From Aggregicoccus sp. 17bor-14 (GTDB lineage Bacteria; Myxococcota; Myxococcia; Myxococcales; Myxococcaceae): a DNA stretch of 64,000 nucleotides. Below are positions 13,528 through 57,303 of the stretch, in pieces. The notes beneath the pieces were generated by a model, which did no database searches, was not told the DNA's origin, and was given only the letters and a program-made list of their open reading frames with translations. Position numbers and translations under genes: made by a program. Each line of letters begins with the position of its first letter. The first letter of the stretch is position 1. The stretch covers positions 1 to 64,000 of the forward strand of contig NZ_VJZZ01000021.1 of the NCBI RefSeq assembly GCF_009659535.1, given 5' to 3'.

Positions 13528-13565
13528 TGTCCCCGCTCCCCCTGCGAGAGGGTCGGGGTGAGGGA
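13528..13565. repeat. REP-like repeat
   Basis: TGTCCCCGCTCCCCC followed by GAGAGGGTCGGGGTGAGGGA, the consensus right arm. It lies directly after the ankyrin gene and could terminate that operon. Between here and 13959 (about 400 bases) there is no gene, only this element and the dispersed repeat. Confidence 0.8.
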
Positions 13566-54517: not shown

Positions 54518-54569
54518 CGCGCCCGCGCGTTTGACACGCGCCCGCCGAAGCCATATTCCCCCGCTCGCT

Positions 54570-54765
54570 CGTCGGTGCTCCTCGCGCAGTGTGGCGGTGG
54601 GCTCCAAGGGAAGCCGGTGAGAGTCCGGCACTGCCCCGCAGCGGTGAGCAGGAACGAACGCCGTCATCTGAAGCACTGGTCCGCAGCTGGACTGGGAAGC
54701 GACGGCCAGTAGGTGGGAGCGCCCCGTGCGTCTCCCGCGCCTGTGAGTCCGAAAACCTGCCGACG
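54570..54765 (+). ncRNA. Cobalamin (adenosylcobalamin-type) riboswitch
   Basis: All main parts are visible. P1 closes with CGTCGG (54570-54575) and CCGACG (54760-54765). The conserved core GGGAAGCCGGTGAGAGTCCG then GCACTGCCCCGC lies at 54608-54639. The B12-box GTGAGTCCGAAAACCTGCC lies at 54743-54761. High cobalamin is expected to lower expression of the three downstream lipoprotein genes. The nearest possible expression platform is a GGCGTGCGC/GCGCACGCC hairpin at 54774-54794. The first gene's start is 180 bases after the aptamer. Confidence 0.95.
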
Positions 54766-54773
54766 GCCCGGTG

Positions 54774-54794
54774 GGCGTGCGCCTCGCGCACGCC
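54774..54794 (+). terminator. Hairpin after riboswitch aptamer
   Basis: GGCGTGCGC-CTC-GCGCACGCC, a perfect 9-bp stem starting nine bases after the aptamer. There is no U-run, so it may work with Rho or as an anti-SD-independent switch element. A second pair, ACCTCC/GGGAGGT, follows at about 54815. Confidence 0.5.
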
Positions 54795-54944
54795 TCCCGG
54801 ACATACCGAGACCTCCGAGGGGAGGTGGCGGACGGCGCACAGGTCAGGTCTGCCTCCAACAGCCCCTCTCCCCCGCGCCTCCCCCCACGCTCCCCCTCGC
54901 GTCTGCACATCCGGCCCTCGGGGGCCGGCAAAGGGATGGGGACC

Positions 54945-56033
54945 ATGAAGGCGACGAAGACGATGCTCCTGGGCGCGGCGCTGCTGGCGCTCGCGAGTGG
55001 CTGCGGTGACGACGCGGCGAAGCAGCAGTTCACCGTGTACGGCCTGAAGGACGACGGCCGCAGCGTGTACAGCCTGGGCACCTGGCCCGACCTCAGCGCG
55101 GGAACCACGCCGCTGTTCGACGTGTTCGCGCCCGAGGACCGGCAGCTGGACCCGGACAAGTTCCAGATCTTCACCGGCGGCTACCTCGCGAATGATGGCA
55201 AGCGGCTGCTGAGCGGCTACACCAAGCCGGACGTCACCGGGAAGGTGGCGGTGCACACGCTCGAGGGCAGCAGCACCCAGTACGTCTCCATCCCCGGCAA
55301 CTTCACCGCGGTGGGCAACGACGGCACCTTCTACGTGAGCGGCCTGCAGGGCGCCTCGTTCAGCTCGGGCTCCGCGGTGTATGCGCTGCGCGATCAGACG
55401 CCGCAGCTCGTGATGGTGGGCAGCCAGGACTCGGCGAGCGGCCCGCTCGCCATCGCCACCAACGGCGCGGCGGTGTTCGGCTACGCGGACGCGAGTGCGA
55501 ACTACGAGAACGTGCTGCCTCTCGTGGCTCCCAGCCTCTACGGTCCGGACAAGGCGGCGGTGACGAGCTTCAGCGGTCCCCTTGGGCTCAGCGGCGTCTT
55601 CGACATCGCGGGCTTCCGCGACGGAATCGCGGCGCTTCAGGGATCGCAGGACCCCCAGACCTTCAAGCGCCACTATGACGGCGTCGTGCGCGTGCCGCTG
55701 AAGGTGGAGGGGGATCTCGTCAAGACGTCGGGCCTGACTGCGCTGGTGCTGCGCTTCGCGGACCAGTGCAGCCGCGTGTCGCTCGAGGGCAGCATGGGTG
55801 ACGACCTGCTCGTGCGCATCTCGGATCCGCAGGGCAAGGACGCGCACCTGGTGCGCATCGCGATCAAGAAGGACGCGAAGAACCCCACCCGCAGCGCCGC
55901 CACCGACTGCGCCACGGCCCAGCGCGACCCGGTGCTCGGCACGCTCGAGCTGCAGACCGGCTTCGTCGTGGAGAGCTCCGCCGCGCTGCCCGAGGGCGTG
56001 GGCGCCGTCACGGCCGTCCCGGTTGCGCAGTGA
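54945..56033 (+). CDS. B12-regulated lipoprotein, beta-propeller-like
   Basis: 362 aa. Lipobox LASGC, then strand-rich repeats that look like a propeller (GLKDDGRSVYSLGTWPDL; GGYLANDGKRLLSGYTKP; GNDGTFYVSGLQGASF; SAVYALRDQTPQLVMVG; GLSGVFDIAGFRDGIAAL). Late cysteines (FADQCSRV, ATDCATAQ) could form a disulfide. No enzyme motif is seen. Placement directly behind the cobalamin riboswitch suggests a surface or periplasmic cobalamin-related binder, as BtuG (also a propeller lipoprotein) is in Bacteroides; sequence kinship to BtuG is not claimed. The next gene overlaps by GTGA. Confidence 0.75.
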   Translation: MKATKTMLLGAALLALASGCGDDAAKQQFTVYGLKDDGRSVYSLGTWPDLSAGTTPLFDVFAPEDRQLDPDKFQIFTGGYLANDGKRLLSGYTKPDVTGKVAVHTLEGSSTQYVSIPGNFTAVGNDGTFYVSGLQGASFSSGSAVYALRDQTPQLVMVGSQDSASGPLAIATNGAAVFGYADASANYENVLPLVAPSLYGPDKAAVTSFSGPLGLSGVFDIAGFRDGIAALQGSQDPQTFKRHYDGVVRVPLKVEGDLVKTSGLTALVLRFADQCSRVSLEGSMGDDLLVRISDPQGKDAHLVRIAIKKDAKNPTRSAATDCATAQRDPVLGTLELQTGFVVESSAALPEGVGAVTAVPVAQ

Positions 56034-56785
56034 GCACCTCCTTCGCAAAGACGCTGCTGCTGCCACTCACGCTGGCCCTCGCGCTCGCAGCGGGCTGTGG
56101 CGGCAGTGACGGCGGCGGGGAGCCCCAGGACGACGCGGGCACGCCGCCGCCCGAGGAGAACCTCAACCCCTGTCTCGGGCCGGCGTCCGTGACGCACGCG
56201 GCGGACCCCTTCGCGGACCGCATCGTGAGCTTCACGCCGGGCGCCGGTGCGGGCTTCGGACAGGACCTGTGCCCCAGCGTGGTGCTGGGCTCACCCGAGG
56301 GCACGGGCACGGCGAATGGCTCGCTGCACGTGCTCTCGCTGGGCAACGGCGGCAGCATCGTGCTCGAGTTCACGGACACCGTGGCGGTGAACGGCCCCGG
56401 CGTCGACTTCATCGTCTTCGAGAACGCCTTCGCGCGCGCAGGTGGCGGCACCTTTGCCGAGCCGGGCCGCGTCGCGGTGAGCGAGGACGGTGTCACCTGG
56501 AGCGAGCGCAGCTGTGCGGTGAGCGACGAGGCCGGGGGCTACCCGGGCTGCGCCGGGGTGAAGCCGGTGTTCGCCTCCAGCACCAACGGGGTGAGCGCCA
56601 CCGACCCGGACGCGGCCGGCGGCGATGCGTTCGACCTGGACGACTTCCCCAGCCCGCCCGCGCGCGTGCGCTTCGTGCGCATCACGGACAGCGGCGTGAA
56701 CAGCTACCTCGCTCCCTCTGGCGGCTTCGACCTCGACGCCGTGGCGGTGGTGAACGGCGCGCCACTCACGGGGCCTGCACCGTGA
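56030..56785 (+). CDS. B12-regulated 'cell surface' lipoprotein
   Basis: 251 aa. GTG start inside the preceding stop. Lipobox LAAGC then GGSDGGGEP linker; mature domain with VVLGSPEGTGTANGSLHVLS, SIVLEFTDTVAVNGPGVDF, IVFENAFARAGGGTFAEPGR and VRFVRITDSGVNSYLAPSGG, the pattern of a broad family annotated only as 'cell surface protein' and often found by cobalamin riboswitches. Two cysteine pairs are likely bonded (SCAVS, GCAGV). No transporter is alongside. It likely stays on the outer surface and binds ligand or partner. Confidence 0.8.
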   Translation: MSTSFAKTLLLPLTLALALAAGCGGSDGGGEPQDDAGTPPPEENLNPCLGPASVTHAADPFADRIVSFTPGAGAGFGQDLCPSVVLGSPEGTGTANGSLHVLSLGNGGSIVLEFTDTVAVNGPGVDFIVFENAFARAGGGTFAEPGRVAVSEDGVTWSERSCAVSDEAGGYPGCAGVKPVFASSTNGVSATDPDAAGGDAFDLDDFPSPPARVRFVRITDSGVNSYLAPSGGFDLDAVAVVNGAPLTGPAP

Positions 56786-57303
56786 GCGAGGTGTCGAAGC
56801 CGTCCCCTCTCCCGCTGGGAGAGGGTCGGGGTGAGGGATGTGAGACGCTCACCCGCCGCGCCGCCCTTTGCACCCTGGTGGGCGGCGGCTGCGCGCTCGT
56901 GCTCGCGTGCGGAAGCGGAGACGACGCACCCTCCGAGCCGCTCGCCGCCTGCGTCCCCGGGCCCCGCGACGGGCGCTCGGGCTGGGTGGAGCTGAAGCTC
57001 TCGGACTACCCCGCGCTGCAGCAGGTGGGCGGCAGCGCGGCGGTGGAGAAGCCCGAGGCCTTCCTCAATGCCGTCGTCTTCCACAGCAGCGAGGGCTGCT
57101 ACGGCGCGGTGTGGAGCGTGTGCACCCACGGCGCGTGCACGGTGGAGTACAAGCCGGACGCGCACCGCCTCGAGTGCCCGTGCCACGGCAGCCGCTTCAG
57201 CGAGGAGGGGCAGCTGCTGCGCGGGCCTGCGCAGCGAGGGCTCTTCGCGTACGACGTGGCGCGCGAGGGGGACTCGCTGTTCCTGCGGCGGCGCACGGGC
57301 TGA
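56782..57303 (+). CDS. Rieske [2Fe-2S] lipoprotein
   Basis: 173 aa, GTG start coupled to the preceding stop (GTGA). Signal: RR at 25-26 (TRRAALC), then hydrophobic stretch and lipobox LAC (C43), so Tat-exported lipoprotein is likely. Rieske ligands C114-T-H116 and C132-x-x-H135, with C119 and C134 for the disulfide of high-potential members. It probably hands electrons to a periplasmic partner. Residues 8-19 (SPLPLGEGRGEG) are the translation of an inserted REP element, an odd extension of the start. No other in-frame start exists downstream of the REP before the signal. Confidence 0.85.
   Translation: MSEVSKPSPLPLGEGRGEGCETLTRRAALCTLVGGGCALVLACGSGDDAPSEPLAACVPGPRDGRSGWVELKLSDYPALQQVGGSAAVEKPEAFLNAVVFHSSEGCYGAVWSVCTHGACTVEYKPDAHRLECPCHGSRFSEEGQLLRGPAQRGLFAYDVAREGDSLFLRRRTG
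56803..56838. repeat. REP-like repeat inside the Rieske coding start
   Basis: TCCCCTCTCCCGCTGGGAGA then GGGTCGGGGTGAGGGA: a perfect CCCTCTCCC-GCT-GGGAGAGGG hairpin plus the tail shared with other copies. It is in frame (36 bases is a multiple of three) with the Rieske gene. All other copies in the window are intergenic. Confidence 0.85.

Follow-up and report, generated by a model that had tools for sequence, protein, structure and literature searches.

Why does a cobalamin (B12) riboswitch stand in front of three lipoprotein genes that have no cobalamin transporter gene beside them? The question arises in a stretch of 64,000 nucleotides from the soil myxobacterium Aggregicoccus sp. 17bor-14 (Myxococcaceae; positions 1 to 64,000 of contig NZ_VJZZ01000021.1, assembly GCF_009659535.1), called the window below, in which an RF00174 riboswitch leads an operon for a beta-propeller lipoprotein (P3), a lipoprotein (P1) whose predicted fold is that of BtuH's B12-binding domain and a Rieske [2Fe-2S] lipoprotein (P2). 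We think it probable that the operon encodes a surface module for cobalamin capture of the BtuG/BtuH kind outside the Bacteroidota, and that the Rieske protein is a genuine part of it. Note that this degree of confidence covers the capture module and its Rieske component; a redox step at the cobalt is excluded from it and is weighed separately below. The best explanation for the operon is that it forms the accessory half of the BtuB-BtuF-BtuCD uptake system of the same genome.

P1 resembles BtuH in its predicted fold

A structure-based search against BtuG and BtuH had been proposed in a first-pass annotation of this DNA. We modelled P1 (56030-56785, plus strand; 251 residues, GTG start, lipobox LAAGC) with AlphaFold2 (AF2) from an alignment of 70 sequences and obtained a predicted local distance difference test (pLDDT) score of 88.3. 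In the Foldseek search with this model, ranks 1 to 3 were taken by chains of BtuG1 and BtuH. With VIA-align, the model could be superposed on BtuH (7biz) with Z = 13.6 and a root mean square deviation (rmsd) of 3.0 over 155 residues, and on the H-domain of BtuG1 (8blw chain B) with Z = 13.3 and an rmsd of 2.9 over 162 residues, while the next fold follows at Z = 9.4 and below. The matched residues are 315-592 in 7biz and 388-660 in 8blw chain B. The former structure is the B12-bound BtuH2, whose C-terminal domain carries the cyanocobalamin (PMC8941943); in BtuG1, the additional domain has been reported to be a BtuH domain fused to the propeller (PMC10404256). By modelled fold and gene context, P1 is a BtuH-like protein and a predicted B12 binder. 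Its identity rests on structure and context because sequence searches fail to reach BtuH; the 20-24% identity to BtuH and BtuG1 is seen in the structural alignment only.

Like BtuH, the surface B12-binding lipoprotein of Bacteroides thetaiotaomicron (PMC8941943, 7biz), P1 is a lipoprotein under riboswitch control with a B12-binding-domain fold, and the linkage of BtuH to btuB is matched by P1 in relatives of our strain. Unlike BtuH, it has no PKD domains, shares 20% identity with it, is missed by sequence search, is predicted to bind B12 from a model, and is hosted by Myxococcota and other non-Bacteroidota genomes. Patches with the patterns E-N-x-F and GGFDLDA are conserved in P1. Asn132 is present in all 70 P1 sequences and Phe134 in 67 of them. 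The contact residues of BtuH2 are Asn399, Phe401 and Gln333 (PMC8941943); an assignment of these contacts to Asn132, Phe134 and Gln78 of P1 would follow their spacing only, with no residue-level alignment, and we do not claim this correspondence.

The BtuJ/DUF4465 proteins (PMC12751083, PMC13398666) resemble P1 as beta-sandwich proteins for B12 capture that are linked to B12 transport loci. P1 as a member of this family was ruled out, as PF14717 does not match it; the same model matches in one of 146 Myxococcota genomes and not in strain 17bor-14. BtuJ structures were not among the P1 fold matches listed, which excludes nothing.

P3 is a predicted propeller lipoprotein

The AF2 model of P3 (54945-56033, plus strand; 362 residues, lipobox LASGC) has a pLDDT of 84.9 and a predicted template modelling (pTM) score of 0.86, and it reaches Z values of up to 18.1 against propellers including TolB (VIA), in agreement with the propeller-like protein expected from the first-pass annotation. 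The top ranks go to TolB, YWTD and kelch propellers, and BtuG2 (8ptf, a structure with cyanocobalamin) appears at Foldseek rank 15 with E = 8.5e-4. Going by its model, P3 is a propeller lipoprotein, and we do not file it as BtuG.

A strand that begins with LGTLELQTGF is C-terminal in P3 of the window and in two other loci (L016 and L083), whereas over 40 further homologues have it before the propeller, following an N-terminal linker. The C-terminal stretch of the window P3 and the pre-propeller N-terminal part of its relatives are mostly 40-63% identical. Judged from these sequences, the beta-propeller of P3 is a natural circular permutant with respect to most of its relatives; a closed propeller tolerates circular permutation.

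BtuG1 (PMC10404256, 8blw) resembles P3 and P1 taken together in that a single operon under a B12 riboswitch supplies both a propeller and a domain of the BtuH type. However, BtuG1 is one fused protein whereas P3 and P1 are two, and their operon does not adjoin btuB in strain 17bor-14. P3 also differs from BtuG in that it matches many propellers better, appears permuted and lacks DUF5074.

P2 belongs to a distinct group of Rieske proteins

P2 (56782-57303, plus strand; 173 residues, GTG start, lipobox VLAC) matches the Rieske family PF00355 with E = 5.4e-11 (42.7 bits, cut-off 20.3), as had been expected of the third protein. Its twin-arginine translocation (Tat) signal ends in the lipobox, and the cluster motif CTHGAC...CPCHGSRF has CxH...CxxH ligands. 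All 12 aligned members keep the twin Arg, the lipobox Cys, CxHGxC and CPCHGSxF, and the cluster motif is kept in 31 of 32 P2 copies. Across 60 relatives, scores range from 185 to 274 bits for the B12-linked copies and reach at most 87 bits for all other Rieske proteins. On this sequence evidence, P2 is a distinct subfamily of Tat-type Rieske lipoproteins.

An assignment as the Rieske subunit of cytochrome bc1/b6f was rejected (best score 52 bits, cut-offs 154 and 250). In its Rieske type P2 does resemble the bc1/b6f proteins: it shares with these high-potential proteins the CxH...CxxH ligands, the disulfide cysteines and the CPCHGS motif. It is unlike them in being a Tat-type lipoprotein, in having no cytochrome b partner in its operon, in falling below all subunit cut-offs and in carrying Phe after CPCHGSx, where bc1/b6f proteins generally have Tyr. 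Such cluster ligands and disulfide cysteines are features of high-potential Rieske proteins, as is the Ser in CPCHGS; Phe in place of Tyr would somewhat lower the potential.

Next, we asked how closely P2 is tied to P1. The B12-linked Rieske protein occurs in 55 and P1 in 96 of 195 Myxococcota genomes, and P1 is present in all 55. When the two lists were read side by side, the Rieske gene was found directly beside P1 in 52 of the 55. As for the other three, it lies 1.4 kb from P1 in G219, there is a possible contig break in G267, and it is truly separate in G266, where it occupies the same place as in the Hyalangium genome G067. In Hyalangium (contig C34 of G067; locus L156, 5821-8842) the gene starts one base after metE, away from P1 and near genes for an IcmF-like B12-dependent acyl-CoA mutase and an ScfR regulator; RF00174 was not found at this locus. 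The metE product is the cobalamin-independent methionine synthase, a classic replacement of the B12-dependent enzyme. The P1-P2 pair is also seen in distant loci from metagenome-assembled genomes (L088, L101, L105, L111 and L113), and the two genes are close by in L106 and L118. The genomes of L105 and L118 have a second, weaker Rieske match elsewhere (92-98 bits).

The riboswitch-led gene order recurs in relatives

The aptamer (54556-54778, plus strand) was found by cmscan with a score of 81.5 bits (cut-off 31.5, E = 1.6e-18) and extends over model positions 1-189, i.e. it is of full length. P3 and P1, and likewise P1 and P2, are joined by 4-base GTGA start/stop overlaps on the plus strand (56030-56033 and 56782-56785), and the signals of P3 and P1 are of the lipoprotein type without a twin arginine. 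The complete aptamer, the coupled genes and the three lipoboxes described in the first-pass annotation are thus all borne out.

RF00174 also precedes the orthologous operon in relatives. We collected 79 named P1 loci from genomes labelled as Myxococcota, Deltaproteobacteria, Planctomycetes, Nitrospirota, Binatia and others, and assigned riboswitch positions to them by matching contig coordinates. A riboswitch lies upstream on the same strand in 56 of the 79 loci, and in 51 of the 68 that have at least 2.5 kb of upstream sequence; in 11 chosen loci, cmscan confirmed the riboswitch directly every time. P1 was found in no plasmid records.

In Citreicoccus (L072), in Myxococcus (L085 and L086) and in a genome labelled Comamonas (L074), the order is riboswitch-btuB-lip2-btuF-btuC-riboswitch-P3-P1-P2-FHA-kinase-btuD, and the 4-base overlap of P1 and P2 is present in these four loci as well. 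Thus, btuB is in the operon adjacent to that of P1 in L072, L085 and others; it is in the same operon in L091 and L039, where a single riboswitch is followed by P3-P1-BtuB-lip2-BtuF. Six Corallococcus loci (L075-L078, L080 and L090) have two consecutive P3-P1 units, each led by a riboswitch, and in five loci a TonB receptor is found directly 3' of P1. The first-pass annotation had left room for an order unique to this strain; the riboswitch-P3-P1 order recurs across the Myxococcaceae. Because the two units adjoin in relatives, the triad can be seen as the second of two units that make up a locus for B12 uptake, and our best reading is that in the window it is a displaced part of the B12-uptake regulon, split from the first unit in this lineage.

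Further genes were seen at these loci. In many Myxococcaceae, an FHA-domain gene and a protein-kinase-like gene stand between the Rieske gene and btuD (L072, 10313-16591, and relatives). In some Deltaproteobacteria metagenome-assembled genomes, another lipoprotein with the motif IAGDWxDxWGGxHxI is encoded between riboswitch and P1 or is fused to P1 (copies at L113 2767-3375, L105 7442-8740 and L147 8392-9642); the L113 copy has no Pfam match.

The transporter genes are elsewhere in the genome

The genome contains two cobalamin riboswitches. The second one, on another contig (C2), leads genes for a TonB-dependent receptor, a cysteine-rich lipoprotein of the Stig1/NHL type, a BtuF-like binding protein and a BtuC-like permease. 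The best NCBIfam match of the receptor is the TonB-B12 model, below its cut-off. About 33 kb further on, the same contig encodes a BtuD that is 68% identical to the BtuD of relatives. The earlier statement that the operon has no transporter therefore held for its immediate surroundings, as none of BtuB, BtuF and BtuC is encoded beside the triad, but not for the genome, in which they are under the second riboswitch, nor for relatives, in which they form the adjacent operon. Read as a property of the system it is misleading: the absence beside the triad is an accident of the Aggregicoccus sp. 17bor-14 genome. Since CbiC, for corrin-ring synthesis, was not found in this genome (99.95% complete), the bacterium appears to depend on B12 uptake, and we take reliance on uptake to be most likely.

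The lipoprotein right after BtuB (L024 11526-12926 and relatives, A6) contains cysteine repeats of the Stig1 type and matches NHL (propeller) models weakly; it may be the BtuG-equivalent lid of the myxobacterial BtuB. P3 as a homologue of this lipoprotein was rejected, as there is no profile match.

A proposed capture module and its alternatives

Taking the known behaviour of RF00174 as a guide, scarce intracellular cobalamin would permit expression of the operon. P1, the BtuH-type lipoprotein, would then bind corrinoids at the cell envelope, and P3 would be the BtuG-like part, acting in capture or in handover to BtuB, an arrangement that mirrors the propeller-BtuH fusion of B. thetaiotaomicron BtuG1. 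P2 would be the dedicated exported Rieske lipoprotein of the module, and the captured cobalamin would feed BtuB-BtuF-BtuCD.

The riboswitch, the BtuB system and capture of the BtuH/BtuG type are known already; the novelty lies in a version that is myxobacterial, split and permuted, and most of all in its Rieske component. So far, BtuH-type capture has been described in gut Bacteroidetes, with three predictions in Firmicutes (PMC8941943), and it would now extend to a large group of bacteria from soil and water. An unannotated lipoprotein family (P1) would gain a likely function, and a specific exported Rieske subfamily would be tied to B12. Finally, an electron-transfer protein in the operon makes the release or remodelling of picomolar-bound surface cobamide a testable question.

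Several of our results weigh against such a module. P1 has no Pfam domain, nothing in Pfam or NCBIfam exceeds its cut-off, and a sequence-profile search of the PDB gave chance matches only, with no BtuH chain up to E = 10. The propeller match of P3 is generic, with other propellers outranking BtuG2; Pfam gave no match to the BtuG propeller family PF16819 (named in PMC13398666) or DUF5074 up to E = 1, NCBIfam gave nothing above cut-off, and the PDB profile search returned chance matches. P2 is absent from 41 of the 96 P1-bearing Myxococcota genomes and is therefore not essential to the module, and the correlation of P1 and P2 distances (r = 0.85) would also be produced by shared ancestry.

Potentially, P1 could be a galactose-binding-like (F5/8, CBM32) adhesin or glycan binder, in a surface attachment module that merely responds to B12. 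CBM32 and F5/8 domains do come next after BtuH and BtuG1 in the fold list, and P1 has a sub-threshold match (49 bits, below cut-off) to NF033170, the family of the Leptospira lipoprotein LIC_13355, which has been reported to bind laminin and plasminogen (PMC11891782). However, BtuH and BtuG1 stand well above all other folds in Z, and P1 homologues follow cobalamin riboswitches and in some cases adjoin BtuB, so we regard an adhesin as very improbable; the LIC_13355 family may itself be a BtuH-like cobalamin binder. Even harder to credit is a recent or non-functional rearrangement at the junction of riboswitch and operon in strain 17bor-14. The operon is set apart from btuB there, unlike in several relatives, but the riboswitch-P3-P1 junction itself is the part conserved across Myxococcaceae loci, and the aptamer scores well.

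What, then, might the Rieske protein do? The first-pass annotation saw a surface cobalamin module with a redox partner. Its capture half is well supported by the P1 fold, the P3 propeller and the recurring gene order, whereas we can only infer the redox role of P2. A Rieske protein under B12 control could not be matched to a described system in that annotation, and the literature on Rieske proteins together with cobalamin riboswitches, BtuB or BtuH likewise yielded no relevant paper on one in B12 uptake. Our best guess, which taken by itself we hold to be less likely than not, is that the exported Rieske protein might be dedicated to surface- or periplasm-bound cobamides and add a reductive or oxidative cobalt step to their capture; we found no such function described, either for a Rieske protein or for a system of B12 uptake. 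P2 would make a reasonable one-electron partner for cob(III)/cob(II)alamin, given that its cluster ligands are intact and that it has the disulfide cysteines and the Ser in CPCHGS. It could change the redox state of the cobalt in a bound corrinoid, for instance to exchange the axial ligand or to ease release from a very tight binder. Reductive decyanation by BtuM, a predicted B12 transporter, is a precedent for cobalt chemistry linked to uptake (PMC6072759), but BtuM is a membrane protein that uses a cysteine, and P2 is an exported lipoprotein. On the other hand, P3 and P1 may capture B12 while the Rieske gene is one more B12-limitation gene and its product leaves the cobalt alone; it could encode, for instance, a protein for electron transfer in the envelope that is required once B12-dependent metabolism is down-regulated. 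We hold this to be rather unlikely: the Hyalangium copy behind metE instead of P1, the many P1 loci without P2 and the kinship of P2 to bc1/b6f proteins speak for it, but in 52 of 55 Myxococcota genomes, as well as at several distant metagenome loci, the Rieske gene comes straight after the gene of the presumed B12 binder, often overlapping it by 4 bases, which speaks against it.

Leader, neighbouring genes and repeats

The leader between aptamer and P3 (54779-54944, plus strand) is the putative expression platform. It contains a G+C-rich hairpin, CCGGCCCTCGGGGGCCGG, directly 5' of the ribosome-binding region; the predicted fold of the leader RNA is no more stable than that of shuffled sequences (z = -0.29). 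P2 is the last gene of the operon, and the next genes, on the minus strand, are modABC. The adjoining ATP-binding cassette transporter had been named as such before, and TIGR02142, TIGR02141 and TIGR01256 each match above cut-off.

A dispersed palindromic repeat, CCCTCTCCCGCTGGGAGAGGGTCGGGGTGAGGG, is found at 56805-56837 and again at 13532, 41236 and 62934 of the window (four copies with at most 3 mismatches, 0 expected). The copy at 56805-56837 falls within the coding sequence of the Rieske gene, in its 5' part, and encodes SPLPLGEGRGEG before the Tat signal.

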